Source: an uncultured Clostridia bacterium
GTDB lineage: Bacteria; Bacillota; Clostridia; TANB77; CAG-508
DNA: 35,274 bases
Direction of reading: 5' to 3'
Assembly: GCA_944393395.1 (NCBI GenBank)
Contig: CALYAB010000011.1
Location: 1-35,274, forward strand
The notes beneath the pieces are model-generated. The model did no database searches. It was not told where the DNA came from and worked only from the letters and a program-made list of their open reading frames with translations. Both the position numbers and the translations under genes were made by a program. Shown here piece after piece: positions 94 through 12,454 of this stretch. The number at the start of each line of letters is the position of its first letter. Within the stretch, counting starts at the first letter, position 1.

Positions 94-1221
94 TGTAGGT
101 TTGTCAAACATATGTCACACTTTATTGATAAATATATAGTTTGAAATACCTAATATGCCTATTCTGTACTTTAACCATTTATATATTCCAAATATTTTTC
201 ATTTGGACTCATCCATTTCAGTGGCTTCATAGGAAAGTTATTGTATTCTTTTTCCCAATATTTTAATCTGTTTTTAAAATCTTCAAAACTACAAAATATC
301 TTGTTGTAATAGAATCTCTCTTGGTCTTTCCTATGACTTCTTTCTACTTTTCCATTATGTCTTGGTGTCTTTGGCTTTATTAATTTGTGCTTTATTCCTA
401 ATTCTTCTAATTTATTCTCGAACATTGTTTTTTTCTTTGTCCCTTGCCAATTTAATCTATTTGTAAATTCAAATCCATTATCTGTCTGTATACATTCTAT
501 TTTAAATGGAAATTTCTTCATTATCACTTTTATGAATTCTGTTGAGGCACTCGTACTTTGTTCTTTACTTGCCCATAATACTCTTTTTCTCGTATATTCA
601 TCTATTGCTGTGTATTGGTAATATCTCCCATCTTTCTCTCTTACTTCTTTTGTTAGGCTCTTTGCTGGTACATATTTTACATCTACTTGCACTCTTTCTC
701 CTGGATATCTCATTTCTTCATATGGTTTTGCCTCATATTCTTTCTTTTTACTTGGTGCTTTATTGTATATTCCTATTCTTTGCATTACTCTATACAAACT
801 TGTTATACTTCTCGTATATCCTGCTTTTCTTAATTTTATCCATAATACCACTAGTCCTGTTTCTTTATTTTTATTTTTGTAATTCTTTATTAACTTTATT
901 TCTTCCTTCGTATGTTGGTTTGGATGTCTATGTGGTCTTCTTGATTTATTCTTTAATGATTGTGCTGTTCCATCATATTTTTCTCGCCATCTATATATTG
1001 TTTTTCTGTGCATTTTAAATTTTATTGCTGCTTTTGTTACTCCATGTTTTAAAGAATATTTTACAACTGATTGCTTATACAATATATCTTGTGTTATACT
1101 ATTCATAGGAAATACCTTCTTTCGATAAAAATTTTGTGGTTAAAATTATTTTATCATATTTTTGGTATTTCCTACTTTTATTTTTTTACTTTTGGTGTGA
1201 CATATCTATTGTAAACCTATA
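94..1221 (-). mobile_element. IS481-type insertion sequence, apparently complete
   Basis: The element is about 1.13 kb with one transposase gene on the minus strand, bounded by imperfect 27-bp terminal inverted repeats at 94-120 and 1195-1221. About 21 of 27 positions agree, and both outer ends read TRTAGGTTT inward. A 17-bp direct repeat (TATTCTTTTAGTTTTAA) abuts the left end at 77-93 and recurs at 1231-1247, nine bases beyond the right inverted repeat. It may be a long target duplication or pre-existing repeat sequence. The open reading frame and both ends look intact, so the copy could be mobile. Confidence 0.8.
171..1106 (-). CDS. IS481-family DDE transposase
   Basis: A transposase of 311 residues that would cut and join the ends of the surrounding insertion sequence. 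Residues 15-50 form a helix-turn-helix (the stretch around HRKTIYRWREKY), followed by an HTH/linker region to about 120. The integrase-type catalytic core has the acidic triad at D142 (VQVDVKY), D209 (QTDNGFEF) and E255 (HNGKVERSHR), with the N-G-K-V-E-R-S-H signature typical of IS481 and IS3 enzymes. There is no frameshift, which favours IS481 (one ORF) over IS3 (two overlapping ORFs). An AGAAGG ribosome site precedes the ATG. The length is normal for the family, so it is probably functional. Confidence 0.9.
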   Translation of the reverse strand: MNSITQDILYKQSVVKYSLKHGVTKAAIKFKMHRKTIYRWREKYDGTAQSLKNKSRRPHRHPNQHTKEEIKLIKNYKNKNKETGLVVLWIKLRKAGYTRSITSLYRVMQRIGIYNKAPSKKKEYEAKPYEEMRYPGERVQVDVKYVPAKSLTKEVREKDGRYYQYTAIDEYTRKRVLWASKEQSTSASTEFIKVIMKKFPFKIECIQTDNGFEFTNRLNWQGTKKKTMFENKLEELGIKHKLIKPKTPRHNGKVERSHRKDQERFYYNKIFCSFEDFKNRLKYWEKEYNNFPMKPLKWMSPNEKYLEYING

Positions 1222-1620: not shown

Positions 1621-1881
1621 GTGTCTTTAATTGTACGATTTGATGGAAATATGAATGTAATAGGCAAATTACTAAAAGAATATAGAATAAAGAAAGATTT
1701 GTCTTATGAGAAATTATCAGCTAAATTAGATTTAATGGGTATTAGTATTCATAAGCAAAGTTTATATGATATTGAAAATAATAAAAGAACTGTAAAAGAT
1801 TATGAACTATTTGGTATTGCTCATGTTTTAGGAATAGATGTTAACGATTTATTGTCTGATATTAAAAAACAATTCGAATAA
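1621..1881 (+). CDS. XRE/Cro-type HTH transcriptional regulator
   Basis: An 86-residue protein that is essentially one lambda-repressor-like HTH domain (about residues 12-75). It includes the typical helix LSYEKLSAKLDLMG, the recognition helix IHKQSLYDIENNKR and the closing element IAHVLGIDVNDLL. It probably binds DNA as a dimer and controls itself and the divergent gene through the palindrome at 1547-1560. The GTG start is chosen because GAGGTGG lies eight bases upstream. An internal ATG ten codons later lacks a comparable site. It has no sensor or protease domain, so induction would have to come from a partner or from protein turnover. It ends at a bidirectional terminator facing the DUF6076-like gene. 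Confidence 0.85.
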   Translation: MSLIVRFDGNMNVIGKLLKEYRIKKDLSYEKLSAKLDLMGISIHKQSLYDIENNKRTVKDYELFGIAHVLGIDVNDLLSDIKKQFE

Positions 1882-1928
1882 AAATATAGCCAAAATCCAC
1901 TTTTTAGGACTTTTGACTATATTTTTAT
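1878..1928. terminator. Bidirectional terminator between convergent genes
   Basis: Arms ATAAAAATATAG (1878-1889) and CTATATTTTTAT (1917-1928) are complementary, with a CAAAA/TTTTG extension inside. The A-rich left flank and T-rich right arm let it serve both the XRE gene and the convergent DUF6076-like gene. Confidence 0.7.
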
Positions 1929-3058
1929 TTATTTTCCATCATCCAGTTATATAGTTTATCTTCTTCAATTTTTCCTTTTTTAAAGAGTTTTATTTTTTCT
2001 TGTGCTTCTTTCTTCCACTTATCAAAATCTTTTTTTAATTGTTTATTTTCTTTGTTTCTATATACTGCCATAACCTTTTGTTGATATGTTCTTCTATATA
2101 GCAATAATGCAGGCACATTTTCTAAATTCTTTTTATAAGTTTCACTTGCACCTTTATCTCTACAAGTTGAACTACCATCAACATTTTTTAAATCACAATA
2201 AATTTCATTTTGCCTAAATGTAGGTATAAAATATCTACCACAAATTTGACAAGTTTTAATTGGTAAATTATCTTGTCTTACTAATTGGTCTAATATAGTA
2301 AAGCAAATACTTCTTAATTTTGTACTTGTATAAACATTGTGTAATTCTAGATTCGGATCTTTGTTTTCAATTCCTTTTATTAAATCTTCCATACTTTCAG
2401 TATGTTTATGATTGTGTATGTTTATATAGTTATCTAAAATAACCTCTACATCTTGTGAATATGTATAAAGTTCGTTATGTTTAATTGTATAAGCAACAAA
2501 TTTTGAATATTTATTATATTCTTTTAATTCTTTATTTCCATTTAGGTTATATACAAAGTCTACACATTTTTTAAAGTTTTCTTGCCATTCTAATAAATCA
2601 TCTAGGCTTGTGTTATAGATATCTTCTAACATTTTTATAAATTCTACATCTGTTATAAATTCATCAGTTTTGGAATATATGTAAGGTGTATATTCTTTTA
2701 TTAATTCAAAGCCATAAGCATAAAAGAAAGTATTATATGCAGATTCAAAAGATGAAAAGTCAGCATTTAAGAAATTTATTAGCAATAAACCTATACTTTC
2801 TGCATAATGAATATAAATAGTTGAAGGTTGTCTAATAATTTCTTTCTTCTTATTTAATTTTGTTTTTGAAATATCTTTTTCTAATTCTAAATATACTCTT
2901 GTTTCATCTTTCTTTTTTTCTTCATCATTTTCTTTGTCTGTATCTTTTCTTAATACATTATATAAATATAATGGCGTTGCATAATATTCTTCTTTATCTT
3001 TTATATTAAACCATATGTAAAAATCTTCTAAAACAAGATGACGTGGTAATTCCCTCAT
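1925..3058 (-). CDS. DUF6076-like zinc-finger protein of mobile elements
   Basis: A 377-residue protein of unknown function. The N-terminal two thirds (about 1-255) is a mostly helical region with no motif I recognise. The C-terminal part carries a putative zinc site: CQICGRYFIP near residue 270, then a cysteine about 20 residues on (YCD), then TCRDKGA. A long basic helical tail follows. This Cys pattern next to an RYF(I/V)P core is what I associate with DUF6076 proteins of clostridial integrative elements and phage-like islands; the family name is from memory and no search was run. AAGGAG precedes the ATG. It is convergent with the XRE gene and divergent from the next HTH gene. Confidence 0.6.
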   Translation of the reverse strand: MRELPRHLVLEDFYIWFNIKDKEEYYATPLYLYNVLRKDTDKENDEEKKKDETRVYLELEKDISKTKLNKKKEIIRQPSTIYIHYAESIGLLLINFLNADFSSFESAYNTFFYAYGFELIKEYTPYIYSKTDEFITDVEFIKMLEDIYNTSLDDLLEWQENFKKCVDFVYNLNGNKELKEYNKYSKFVAYTIKHNELYTYSQDVEVILDNYINIHNHKHTESMEDLIKGIENKDPNLELHNVYTSTKLRSICFTILDQLVRQDNLPIKTCQICGRYFIPTFRQNEIYCDLKNVDGSSTCRDKGASETYKKNLENVPALLLYRRTYQQKVMAVYRNKENKQLKKDFDKWKKEAQEKIKLFKKGKIEEDKLYNWMMENK

Positions 3059-3275: not shown

Positions 3276-3740
3276 TTGAATACTAAAGAACAGATTTTAG
3301 ACTTATATTATAATGAACATCTAAAACAAAATGAAATTGCCAAAATAGTTGGAAAAAGCTGTCCTTATGTTTCAAAGGTTGTAAAAACTGACAATAGAAA
3401 CAAACAAGAAAAGGAAACTCGTAAAAAAACAAATGCTGAAAACAGAAAAGTTTATTTACAAGAATACTTTAAAACTTATGATAGACCAAAGAAAGATGAC
3501 AATAGTTATGAGCAAATGTTAGCACATCAAAAACAAGATGCAATGGAATTATCTTATACTAACAATAATATGTCAGACTATGCTCTTGCAAAATGGTCTA
3601 GCATATACCATACTAATAGCAAAGGAAATTTAGTTATAGATAGAAAATTAAAAGTTGGCTTTGATGTTCCAAAATCAATAAATATGAATATCAAAGTACC
3701 AACACAAAAATATAAAAATAGATATATTTATAGTTATTAA
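3276..3740 (+). CDS. Small HTH protein of the integrated element
   Basis: A 154-residue protein. Residues 4-35 form a homeodomain-like helix-turn-helix (ILDLYYNEHLKQNEIAKIVG, then a recognition helix around PYVSKVV), as in resolvase or sigma-70 region 4-like HTHs. The remainder is a basic, Asn/Lys-rich tail without a known domain. The start is TTG, set by GAGGAGG about ten bases upstream. It is the first gene after a consensus promoter and is followed by a terminator, then the excisionase-like and integrase genes. A role in controlling the element is likely but unproved. Confidence 0.65.
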   Translation: MNTKEQILDLYYNEHLKQNEIAKIVGKSCPYVSKVVKTDNRNKQEKETRKKTNAENRKVYLQEYFKTYDRPKKDDNSYEQMLAHQKQDAMELSYTNNNMSDYALAKWSSIYHTNSKGNLVIDRKLKVGFDVPKSINMNIKVPTQKYKNRYIYSY

Positions 3741-3777: not shown

Positions 3778-3810
3778 ATTGTGAATTTTAAAGGAAGGAG
3801 GACTAACAAT

Positions 3811-4023
3811 ATGGGTACTATTAAAGAAAATTATCAAATGATGTTTACTTCATATCCAGATTTAGTAGATATCAAACAATTAAAAGAAATGCTTGGTATA
3901 GGTATCACACTTGCATATAGATTAGTAAAAAATAATACAATTCAAGCCTTAAAAGTTGGTAGAGAATATAAAATACCAAAAAGAAATGTTATCGCCTATT
4001 TAACAAATCAAAATGAAATATGA
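3811..4023 (+). CDS. Excisionase-like HTH_17 protein
   Basis: A protein of about 70 residues with a winged-HTH/excisionase fold. The core reads DIKQLKEMLGIG, then a recognition helix (TLAYRLVKNN), then a wing (IQALKVGREYKIPKRNVIAYL), which is the arrangement of Tn916-type Xis and MerR-like HTH_17 proteins. Such proteins bend DNA near the attachment site and steer the integrase toward excision. The ATG at 3811 is chosen because AAGGAGG lies 12 bases before it; the in-frame GTG ten codons upstream has no ribosome site. It sits directly upstream of the integrase, the standard xis-int order. Confidence 0.8.
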   Translation: MGTIKENYQMMFTSYPDLVDIKQLKEMLGIGITLAYRLVKNNTIQALKVGREYKIPKRNVIAYLTNQNEI

Positions 4024-4110: not shown

Positions 4111-5284
4111 ATGAATATAACAGCAAACCTATTTATACAGCATGGTTTATACTATGTTATTTTAAGTTACAGAGATAGTAACAACAAAAGAAAACAAAAA
4201 TGGATTCCTACAGGAATTACAGAAAAAGGAAATAATAAAAGATTAGCAAATCAAAAGTTAGATGAAATAAAAAGAAACTATAAAGATTATTTACCAACAG
4301 AATGTACTTTTGAAACTAATGAGGCTGACAAATATTTTGAAGTATATCTAAATGAATGGCTAGAGTCATATAAACATAGAATTGAAGAAAATACCTATAA
4401 TTCTTATAAAACTGTAGTTACTAAAACAACAGAATTTTTTAAACGGAAAAAATATTAAATTGAGAGATTTAAAACCTATTCATATTCAAAAATTCTATGA
4501 CTCTTTATATGCAAAGGGATTGAATGGAAATTCTATATTACATTATCATGCCAATATAAGAAAGGCTTTAGATACTGCAATGAAACTTGATATTATTCCT
4601 AGTAATCCAGCTGATAAAATTGAAAGGCCAAAGAAAAATCAATTTATCGGTGACCATTATACTTTAGAAGAATTACAAATACTTTTTGAAAAGTCTAAAA
4701 ATGATCCATTAGAATTAGTGATATTAATTGCAAGTTTTTATGGATTAAGAAGAAGTGAAGTTTTAGGTTTAAAGTGGTCTGCTTTTGATTTAACTAACAA
4801 TACAATAACCATTAAACACAAAGTAATTGAGGCTATTGTAGATGATAAAAGAACATTACTTTTAAAAGATAAAACTAAAAATAAATCAAGTTATAGGTCT
4901 TTACCTTTAATTCCAGAAATTAAAGAGGCTTTACTTGAACACAAAAAGAAAATAGATAATAATAAGAAGTTATGTGGAAATAGTTATATTAAGGATTACA
5001 AAGATTATATTTGTGTAAATGAAATAGGAAAGATATTTAGACCAGAATATATTACTGACCACTTTTCATTATTACTTAAAAAGAATAATTTAAGGCATAT
5101 TCGCTTTCACGATTTAAGACATTCTTGTGCTAGTTTATTACTCGCTAAAAATGTTCCAATGAAAGCAATTCAAGAATGGTTAGGTCATTCCACCTATTCT
5201 ACTACTGCTAATTTATATACACATTTAGAAAGTAATACTAAAAATATTTCTGCAAATATTTTATCAGAAGCAATTAGTTTTTGA
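4111..5284 (+). pseudogene. Tyrosine recombinase (integrase) with a one-base frameshift
   Basis: The gene would encode about 390 residues, the usual length of Tn916-type integrases. The N-terminal part carries the arm-binding domain and the start of the SAM-like core-binding domain (frame ending at 4458). The rest, in the +1 frame from about 4440, has the catalytic domain with YGLRRSEVLGL (Arg I), a Lys-containing beta hairpin, HDLRHSCASLL (His-x-x-Arg), GHSTYSTT and the Tyr nucleophile in ANLYTH. Frame is lost at a T6 run followed by AAAC near 4435-4444, and removing one base restores a continuous integrase. It is therefore a pseudogene, a sequencing error, or less likely a programmed shift. 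It lies 98 bp from the tRNA-Gln it probably targets. AAAGGAG precedes the ATG. Confidence 0.85.
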
Positions 5285-5348
5285 TAAAATAAAAAAATTA
5301 TCATACTTAAACCCACCTTCGAAAATAAGTTTAATTAGATAATTTTTG

Positions 5349-5519
5349 TTTGACATTGTTTGACAAAAAAATGTCTTAAATTGGCTGGGCTGGCTAGATT
5401 CGAACTAGCGCATGGTAGAGTCAAAGTCTACTGCCTTACCACTTGGCTACAGCCCAATGTTTAATATTAAATTTTAAAAAAGAAATTTTGCAGAGTTTGT
5501 TTGACATTCTGTTTGACAT
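5349..5519. repeat. Repeated TTTGACA motifs around the tRNA, possible integrase arm sites
   Basis: GTTTGACATTGTTTGACA occurs at about 5348-5365 and GTTTGACATTCTGTTTGACA at about 5499-5518, giving four TTTGACA units in two close pairs. They bracket the intact tRNA-Gln and precede the partial copy. Paired direct repeats beside an attachment core are typical of arm-type binding sites for tyrosine integrases; the assignment here is by position only. Confidence 0.45.
5382..5456 (-). tRNA. tRNA-Gln (UUG), probably carried by the integrated element
   Basis: A complete cloverleaf on the minus strand. The acceptor pairs TGGGCTG with CAGCCCA, then comes discriminator G and an encoded CCA. The anticodon stem is GTAGA/TCTAC around loop CTTTGAC, giving anticodon TTG, and the T arm contains GTTCGAATC. 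The anticodon-stem pairs differ from those implied by the partial copy to the right (CCAGA), yet both strands here match each other. This copy is therefore self-consistent and not a hybrid of the split host gene. Confidence 0.93.
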
Positions 5520-5601
5520 TTGCAAATTTTGAAAATAGTATATCATTCAAACTCTATATATGTCAAGCCATTGCGGGATTGGAATAACTTTAAACCATTA
5601 A

Positions 5602-5643
5602 AGAGTCAAAGTCTGGTGCCTTACCGCTTGGCTACAGCCCAAT
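5602..5643 (-). pseudogene. 5' half of a split tRNA-Gln; attachment-site junction
   Basis: These 42 bp match the 5' half of tRNA-Gln from acceptor strand to anticodon loop, with 39 of 42 bases identical to 5417-5458. Homology stops exactly at the anticodon-loop block AGAGTCAAAGTCT (5602-5614), and what follows is unrelated. It lies eight bases from tRNA-His, a natural tRNA cluster, so this looks like the remaining half of the host gene. The 13-bp block would be the recombination core marking the right end of the element. Confidence 0.75.
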
Positions 5644-5650
5644 ATATACA

Positions 5651-5728
5651 TGGGGTGGAAGATGGGACTCGAACCCACGGTCTCCAGTGCCACAAACTGG
5701 CGCGTTAACCAACTACGCTACATCCACC
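5651..5728 (-). tRNA. tRNA-His (GUG)
   Basis: A complete minus-strand cloverleaf. The anticodon stem CCAGT/ACTGG surrounds TTGTGGC (anticodon GTG). The T arm is GTGGG-TTCGAGT-CCCAT. There is an encoded CCA and an extra 5' G opposite discriminator C, the hallmark of histidine tRNAs. One T-T mismatch is visible near the base of the acceptor stem. Confidence 0.93.
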
Positions 5729-10015: not shown

Positions 10016-11330
10016 TTATTCAACTATAATATATTCTTCATTAGCTTTTACACATTTTAATTTTAAAATTGTATTTTCAATTTTGTCTGATGTCTTATAA
10101 TGAGCTAATATATAATTCTTGGTATGTCCCTGATATACTCCATTTTTTTCTTCTTCAAAAAGAATTTCAACACTTTTTCCTATATAACTTTCATTATAAT
10201 ATCTTTGATTTTTATTTGATAATTCTATTAACTTTTTACTTCTCTCTTCTTTTATATTACCATTAACTTGTCCCTTCATTGATGCTGCTTTAGTACCTTT
10301 TCTTGGTGAATATTTAAATATATGCATTTTATAAAATTTTATTTTTTCCAAAAATGTATATGTCTGGTTAAATTCTTCTTCACTTTCTCCTGGAAATCCT
10401 ACTATAATATCTGTCGTTAAAATTGCATCTTCAAAATAAGTTCTCAATAATGTTGTTATCTCTTTAAATTGTTCTGTTGTATATCTTCTATTCATTCTTT
10501 TTAATGTCTCATCACATCCACTTTGTAATGATAAATGAAATTGATGGCAGACTTTAGACAATTTTTCTAATCTATTTACAAATTCTTCTGTTATTAACAA
10601 TGGTTCTATAGAACCTAGTCGAATTCTTTCAATTCCTTCTATGCTATTGATTTCTTCTAATAAATCTATTAATTTATATTCTTCTTTAAAATCTTTTCCA
10701 TATGATGCAATATGTATTCCAGTAATAACAACTTCTTTTATCCCTTCTTTAGCAATTTTAGTGATTTCAGATAAAATATTTTTTGGCTTTCTACTTCTTA
10801 CTCGTCCTCTTGCATAGGGAATGATACAGTATGAACAAAAACGATCACATCCATCCTGGATTTTGATAACGGCTCTTGTTTTTTCTGTAAATGTAATATC
10901 TCCAAATTCCACAAATTCTTTTTGTCCGCATCACATCTTCTGCTTGTGTTTCAGGAATTTTACTATCTATATATTTTTCTACATGTTCTACTATAGTTTT
11001 TTTCTCATTATTTCCTAATACTAAATCAATTTCATCTATTTTTTCTAATTCTTCTTTAGCTACTTGTGCATAACAGCCACATGCAACTACAATGGCATCT
11101 GCATTTAATTCTTTTACTCTTCTTAACATTTGCCTAGATTTTCTGTCTGACATATTGGTTACTGTACATGTATTTACAATATATATATCAGCTTTTTCTG
11201 TATGTTCAACTATTTTGTAACCTTTTTGTATAAATTGCTGTGTCATTGCATTTGTTTCATATTGATTTACTTTACAACCTAATGTTATAAATGCTACTGT
11301 TTTTCTATCATTTTTCATCTTATATCTCAT
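10016..11330 (-). pseudogene. mtaB: tRNA t6A37 methylthiotransferase MtaB, interrupted by a one-base frameshift
   Basis: Joined across the shift this gives about 437 residues, normal for MtaB, which adds the 2-methylthio group to t6A at position 37 of tRNAs reading ANN codons. The N-terminal UPF0004 domain has cluster cysteines in LGCKVNQYE, NTCTVT and CGCYAQ. The radical-SAM domain has CDRFCSYCIIPYARG, and the C-terminal TRAM domain starts around GKSVEILFEE. The first frame stops at 10845 and the second runs back from about 10924. Frame is lost at an A5 run (minus-strand ACAAAAAGAATTT, about 10920), and one fewer A restores it. This is either a real lesion or an assembly error. It lies downstream of mreB after a 73-bp gap with a GC-rich hairpin. 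Confidence 0.88.

Positions 11331-11403: not shown

Positions 11404-12454
<1,051 letters not shown>

Follow-up and report, generated by a model that had tools for sequence, protein, structure and literature searches.

A tyrosine-integrase element in an uncultured gut Clostridia genome that very probably splits a host tRNA-Gln gene and carries its complete substitute

Our analysis makes it very probable that a tyrosine-integrase element has split the tRNA-Gln(UUG) gene of its host at the anticodon loop and carries a complete substitute. The stretch of DNA analysed (35,274 nucleotides, hereafter the window) belongs to an uncultured gut Clostridia bacterium, whose genome is a MAG of 83 contigs, 68% complete, in which the only other tRNA-Gln found reads CTG. 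Along the minus strand, tRNA-His is followed by the 5' half of a tRNA-Gln(UUG), 145 bp of intervening sequence, a complete tRNA-Gln(UUG), and then a tyrosine integrase facing it. The features of this locus are:

5651..5727, minus strand: tRNA-His(GTG) of the host, upstream neighbour of the split gene (ARAGORN, Rfam)
5602..5641, minus strand: 5' half of the host tRNA-Gln(TTG) (attL), with stem strand CCAGA (sequence; intact gene in relatives G027 and G020)
5602..5614, minus strand: crossover core; in relatives GACTTTGACTC (11 bp) is common to both ends, around the 7-nt anticodon loop CTTTGAC
5537..5566, minus strand: promoter-like TTGACA-18-TATACT with TG before the second hexamer, within the element and directed at the carried tRNA (consensus match only)
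5497..5518, no strand: paired 10-bp repeats TTGTTTGACA / CTGTTTGACA, putative integrase arm-type sites (repeat search)
5382..5456, minus strand: complete element-borne tRNA-Gln(TTG), with recoded anticodon stem GTAGA/TCTAC (ARAGORN, Rfam, comparison)
5346..5365, no strand: tandem pair of TTGTTTGACA, between tRNA and integrase (repeat search)
4460..5284, plus strand: tyrosine integrase, catalytic part (Pfam PF00589, E 2.6e-22)
4111..4458, plus strand: N-terminal part of the integrase, in a different frame (ORF comparison with relatives)
3781..4023, plus strand: HTH_17 protein of 80 aa (Pfam PF12728), at a guess an excisionase from its size and place
3276..3740, plus strand: 154-aa protein, with similar ORFs in kindred elements by eye and no match in Pfam and PHROG searches
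1925..3058, minus strand: DUF6076 protein (Pfam PF19553), with similar ORFs in kindred elements by eye
1621..1881, plus strand: HTH_3 repressor-like protein (Pfam PF01381)
171..1106, minus strand: transposase (rve) of an IS close to the contig end (Pfam PF00665, PHROG transposase)

The complete tRNA-Gln at 5382-5456 scores 67.9 bits with Rfam, ARAGORN agrees, and its 5' part is repeated at 5602-5648 (47 nt, 89% identical, spacing 185). The motif AGAGTCAAAGTCT occurs at 5417-5429 and 5602-5614; two matches with up to two mismatches are unremarkable alone, being reached in 19 of 100 shuffles, and what is noteworthy is rather the 47-nt repeat and its recurrence in relatives. Half and complete copy differ in one D-arm base and in the stem strand, CCAGA in the first and GTAGA in the second, where it pairs with TCTAC at all five positions. 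An earlier note on this DNA had read the complete stem in this way and had argued that such a copy cannot be the host 5' half rejoined to a 3' half from the element; the argument holds, both stem strands being different from the host allele. Its account of the half needs one correction: the half beside tRNA-His is real, but tRNA identity ends three bases past the anticodon loop (CTTTGAC-TCT), not at it. The promoter-like site has 11 of 12 consensus matches and lies ~80 bp before the carried tRNA, in a region with nine such sites against 2.5 in shuffles.

Two close relatives have an intact gene at this site. Over the flanking 1,037 bp, the genomes G027, G020 and G025 are 86%, 84% and 84% identical to the window. 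In G027 and G020, tRNA-His is followed by an intact tRNA-Gln with the stem CCAGA/TCTGG, exactly the host stem that had been deduced from the half, and by eye the window and G027 are identical over 51 bases up to the break. As the intact gene lies at the same place in these two genomes, the half is what remains of the host gene, which an insertion has broken. No element-free genome with the same full-plus-half arrangement was seen among the relatives compared, and a simple tandem duplication of tRNA-Gln is ruled out by the break continuing into element sequence with fixed-offset repeats.

Other arrangements were observed around this site. In G025 (L008), the tRNA-Gln behind tRNA-His is without its first ~25 bases, and contig C57 of that genome holds an orphan 3' half together with an element whose integrase is related. 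A GC-richer insert of ~120 bp lies between tRNA-His and tRNA-Gln at L019, L024 and L222 (in G024, G010 and G066, respectively), starting after the first 15 nt of tRNA-Gln and repeating the upstream flank of this gene. L149 and L150 seem to have a similar insert in the same place, and something similar is found in a tRNA-Ser at L340.

We propose that the element recombined into the only tRNA-Gln(UUG) gene found, with the crossover at its anticodon loop. The attP and the gene would have only ~11 bp in common, so that neither junction would rebuild the tRNA: the 5' half would stay beside tRNA-His and the 3' half would be pushed to the far end of the element. The complete tRNA-Gln(UUG) just inside the junction, between the arm-type repeats and the integrase, would make good the damage, perhaps from a promoter of its own. 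The carried tRNA is presumably expressed and essential. The split gene is apparently essential too; the cell survives, but would probably now depend on the element.

The layout recurs in the genus, of which we sampled 210 genomes. Broken tRNA-Gln halves number 18 in 16 genomes (13 UUG, 5 CUG): the Gln pattern listed 30 places, 13 full tRNAs with TCTAA or TCTAG and 17 halves, and the half of G229, which this pattern missed, was added separately. Ten of the 18 continue to a complete tRNA and eight are cut by contig ends. Broken tRNA-Leu(CAA) halves number 29 in 29 genomes; 17 are followed by a complete tRNA-Leu, starting 153-170 bp from the D arm of the half, and 12 are cut by contig ends. The named record CALXVB010000001, a contig of 86 kb with an integrase 94% identical to the window's, adds one Gln pair, giving 28 pairs with the window included (10 and 1 Gln, 17 Leu). 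Whether in tRNA-Gln(UUG), tRNA-Gln(CUG) or tRNA-Leu(CAA), a stem common to half and full copy was found in none of the 28. We do not use the 0/17 of tRNA-Leu as proof of avoidance; it carries little weight because carried and split alleles hardly overlap and few matches are expected. Further tRNA-Leu pairs in named records, whose stems differ in all those seen, were left uncounted, some coming from genomes already included; L354 at least falls outside the 29.

Related integrases also occur in other settings. At L344 in Ruminococcus albus AR67 (NZ_FOKQ01000017), a named strain that is not labelled as a MAG and thus a possible laboratory system, a tRNA-Leu(CAA) half with GCAGA and a full copy with GTAGA adjoin an integrase that is 48.7% identical. 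At L318, L333 and L350, related integrases lie beside an intact tRNA-Tyr(GTA); a search for a half found none there, so these may rebuild the gene.

Among the eight Gln(UUG) pairs, differences between carried tRNA and host type are limited to position 16 and the outer stem pairs (26-28 and 40-42, counted from the first base). Half and full copy are unlike at 19 of 24 outer-stem positions and at 6 of 200 in the rest of the 5' half (Fisher p 4e-18, a value that overstates the contrast because related elements are counted separately and the rows are not independent). The carried stems are GTAGA, CATGA, CGTGA (three), ATCGA and TATGA (two), i.e. five solutions in eight elements, and none is CCAGA, the commonest stem among the matches listed. 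In tRNA-Gln(CUG), TCGGA gives way to GATGG in three of three cases, and all 11 Gln stems are fully paired. Such recoding looks selected, perhaps against self-attack. According to the available text of PMC8371274, the 7-bp overlap and the core sites of tyrosine recombinases match the anticodon loop and stem, and the recoded outer pairs lie where a tyrosine integrase would be expected to grip attB. With these arms changed, the spare copy could escape use by the integrase of the element that carries it. Shielding the carried tRNA from this integrase is the likeliest reason for the recoding, although we advance it tentatively. An origin of the carried stems from attP was ruled out by eye: the letters next to the core at the element ends do not yield them.

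The stem differences might instead reflect ancestry only, the tRNA having been taken from a lineage with another stem, an explanation that we consider a serious possibility while stopping short of calling it probable. There are resident tRNA-Gln genes with GTAGA, TTAGA, CATGA or CTAGA stems and no half in the ~1.5 kb around them, and carried tRNA-Leu differs from the host gene along its whole length. The carried tRNAs of Sinorhizobium meliloti and Fionnbharth are also not close to those of their hosts, as far as the accessible parts of PMC11476347 and PMC10865867 tell. Yet ancestry alone accounts poorly for tRNA-Gln(UUG), where hardly any change falls outside the outer stem pairs, the eight elements show five different solutions, and the commonest listed stem is absent from all eight. 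Protection against an anticodon nuclease or toxin, instead of against the integrase, is an unlikely role for the recoded stem of the carried tRNA: the G081 element does have a HEPN and a nucleotidyltransferase-domain gene, and phage tRNAs evading tRNA-cutting defences have been reported, but the loop is unchanged in all cases and the stem alone is altered.

If the recoding shields the carried tRNA from an integrase, it does so at best against the element itself. As a general shield it is ruled out by G196, G210 and G090 and by L336, L338 and L357. The first three have the split in alleles that other elements carry (CATGA in G196 and G210, TATGA in G090), as have the tRNA-Leu loci L279, L302 and L354, where the insertions are in alleles carried by other elements. 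Among the six pairs detailed outside the genus (L336, L338, L339, L340, L344 and L357), half and full copy have a common stem in L336, L338 and L357. L336 has two successive halves, each followed by nearly identical element sequence, which amounts to insertion into a carried tRNA. G066 also speaks against shielding, as its integrase, close to that of the window, adjoins a tRNA with the CCAGA stem.

The splits in carried alleles suggest serial replacement, in which a carried tRNA becomes the working gene and is then split again. G180 may represent a later stage, with half and full copy recombined into one gene: it has a GTAGA tRNA near tRNA-His, downstream sequence like the window's, no half, and an integrase remnant 97.7% identical over 86 residues. 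Within ~1.5 kb on each side of the loci with noncanonical stems, integrase remains were matched at 4 of 19 (the G032 element, G180, L150 and one match of 21 residues); the other 15 were unmatched, so most of these loci show no trace of an element. It is conceivable, if on present evidence not the way we would bet, that substitute tRNAs with stems re-spelled pair by pair evade their own integrase and that serial splitting and replacement by different elements drives the turnover of the essential tRNA-Gln and tRNA-Leu genes of the host, resident tRNAs descending from those of elements.

The junction itself can be compared with that of a rebuilding element. In G081, both ends of such an element are on one contig, 8.0 kb apart, with an intact CCAGA/TCTGG gene at one end and an orphan 3' half at the other. 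The distances of its paired TGTCAAACAA repeats from the core are 95 and 107 bp. Repeats at the same 95 and 107 bp are found in the window and in six other replacing junctions (G151, G203, G014, G087, G229 and CALXVB); a scan of G032 for paired repeats found none within one mismatch. Because these distances are identical, the broken junction is an attL of the same machinery as in G081. The window's element has both an integrase of its own (PF00589) and an att site with paired repeats at the G081 offsets. Unlike that of G081, its attL contains no 3' half within the interval, and a whole tRNA follows past the repeats.

Conventional restoration, in which the host 5' half is joined to a 3' half from the element and the extra half comes from a second element or a tandem insertion, is very improbable here. 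The elements of G081 and G062, close relatives by their integrases, do rebuild the gene (in G062, too, a single contig contains the two ends), and more than one 3' piece can share a contig (several in G062 C66). Against it stand the complete copy, both of whose stem strands differ from the host allele, the fixed-offset repeats of the intervening sequence and the recurrence of the layout in 28 pairs. An artefact joining two strains is hardly credible: the MAG is in 83 contigs, the window has other split frames and 8 of the 18 Gln halves of the genus are at contig ends, but the same structure and spacing occur in other assemblies, including the 86 kb contig CALXVB010000001. We thus retain the reading of a split host gene with a carried substitute. 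The earlier note had held that the element brought a whole tRNA-Gln, and the empty sites, five relatives with both halves, the G081 repeat geometry and 27 further half-plus-full pairs all agree with it.

The note had also placed the host 3' half at the far junction. This arrangement is found in five relatives, but two pattern searches of the window's own assembly (68% complete, 83 contigs) found no 3' half, the window's contig ending 5.4 kb away; the missing end of the element would be expected to hold it. A candidate for the far end that came from the relaxase search, G000:C49, was rejected, as its sequence past the relaxase matched none of the compared ends. Relatives have 3' halves that lack a 5' partner and abut an element end. 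Five of the 13 genomes in which a UUG half is broken possess both pieces, a broken 5' half and an orphan 3' half whose stem strands match: G032, G072, G200 and G208 (CCAGA, TCTGG) and G196 (CATGA, TCATG). The two pieces are mostly on separate contigs that end inside the element; in the other eight genomes the search found no orphan. By itself an orphan 3' half proves little, because rebuilding and replacing elements both leave one at the far end. In the window, the one visible junction rebuilds no tRNA, and in the five relatives the other end is a 3' half only. The 11-bp core is present at both ends in G032 and G072, the window offering one end only, and in G151 the break falls three bases earlier, at the end of the loop, which fits a crossover within the loop. 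The orphan of G032 is one base longer than the working gene, as if selection were gone. Several 3' halves or pieces lie a few kb apart at L105 (G062:C66), L205 (G210:C63) and L336; these are tandem or nested insertions in the same tRNA.

The window's element is likely to be an integrative mobilizable element, since kin with 82-87% identical integrases carry a relaxase. The G081 and G087 elements have in common with it, by eye, the order integrase, 154-aa protein and DUF6076 protein; that of G081 has genes for a Mob_Pre relaxase and for HEPN and nucleotidyltransferase domains, and in G032 a Mob_Pre relaxase adjoins the orphan 3' half. We take these Mob_Pre relaxases to be of the MobV type. No relaxase was found on the window's contig, which covers 5.4 kb of the element, and this sets it apart from Mob_Pre integrative mobilizable elements, which it resembles through the G081 gene content (integrase, relaxase, regulators). 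PHROG searches of seven ORFs of the window, with its 5.4 kb of element, and of three ORFs of G081 and G087 found no virion proteins; the matches were to integrase, transposase and regulators. The viral collection gave four integrases with at most 43% identity, and the phage collection 1,065 integrase matches, all below 60% (best 54.5%).

The carriers differ among themselves. That all are mobilizable elements is ruled out by genomes without relaxase and by a prophage in G014. A Mob_Pre-type relaxase was absent from 9 of the 16 genomes searched, seven of which have broken Gln halves (G072, G208, G151, G203, G014, G229 and G090). In G014 (L097, L211; G014:C4), the carried tRNA has the stem ATCGA, and behind it come a different integrase and then a prophage that encodes terminase, portal, head and tail proteins and a CI-like repressor; either a phage uses tRNA replacement or a phage has inserted at the 3' end of the carried tRNA. 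Beyond the G151 and G229 junctions lie genes for a large protein of unknown function and for a phage-type primase.

The integrase of the window spans 4111-5284 in two frames, split at ~4458, whereas most relatives have a single ORF of 390-420 aa. Two housekeeping genes, at 10016-11330 and 11404-12421, which we take to be MtaB/MiaB-like and MreB-like, also consist each of two overlapping ORFs in different frames. These split genes point to indel errors in the assembly, so that for the integrase such an error is no less likely than loss of function. In a tree of the C-terminal parts of the integrases (where row L314 holds eight stops and is placed unsurely), the window and CALXVB group with G066 (94/72), and CALXVB with G066 (97/83). 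The integrase of G066 is 92.3% identical to the window's and adjoins a CCAGA tRNA with no half and an odd insert. G087, which replaces the gene, groups with G081, which rebuilds it (92.3% identical; 83/92). This suggests that the mode, rebuilding or replacing, changes among close integrases, with moderate support and with the mode of G066 uncertain.

The principle is already known from the tRNA-dependent lysogeny of mycobacteriophages Fionnbharth, Gaia and others (Guerrero-Bustamante and Hatfull 2024, PMC10865867) and from two prophages of S. meliloti (PMC11476347), as far as the available parts of these sources go. In the former, as here, a tyrosine integrase uses a core within a host tRNA gene (8-17 bp there, ~11 bp here), the tRNA is not rebuilt (here at the one visible junction), the element carries a whole tRNA of the same isotype, and rebuilding and replacing vary among related integrases. 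Those cases are temperate phages of Actinobacteria supported by experiments, whereas ours is probably a mobilizable element known from sequence alone. The accessible text describes the carried tRNA of Fionnbharth as not closely related to the host's and as overlapping another phage gene; in the window's element it lies 145 bp inside the core and is nearly the host's except in the anticodon stem. Beyond Actinobacteria, the same source mentions Lactobacillus johnsonii Lj965 as a possible example. In S. meliloti, a central insertion inactivates tRNA-Leu(UAG) and a prophage tRNA replaces it, but this concerns two strains, the carried tRNA is at most 80.6% similar to the host's, and the portions of PMC11476347 available describe no stem-only recoding. 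Conventional tDNA islands (Islander, accessible text of PMC4383910) also have a tyrosine integrase at a tRNA gene and a displaced fragment at the far end, but they rebuild the tRNA at one junction, which the window's element does not do at its visible one; the G081 and G062 elements are of that kind. Nothing closer was found in the open-licence literature, a scope outside which most subscription journals fall. What this case adds is its host group, a carrier that is probably no phage, and the use of three tRNA genes by kindred integrases in one genus. Further novelties are that the tRNA occupies a fixed position beside the core, that recoding in tRNA-Gln(UUG) affects the stem only, and that there are signs of serial replacement.

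Overall, these results extend tRNA replacement on integration beyond the phage set to a genus of gut Clostridia, where it is common and where at least some carriers look mobilizable. The matched stem changes offer an inexpensive way to learn which bases of a tRNA gene are read by a tyrosine integrase. Replacement of this kind would turn an essential host gene into the property of a mobile element, and it offers a route for the replacement of tRNA genes over evolution.
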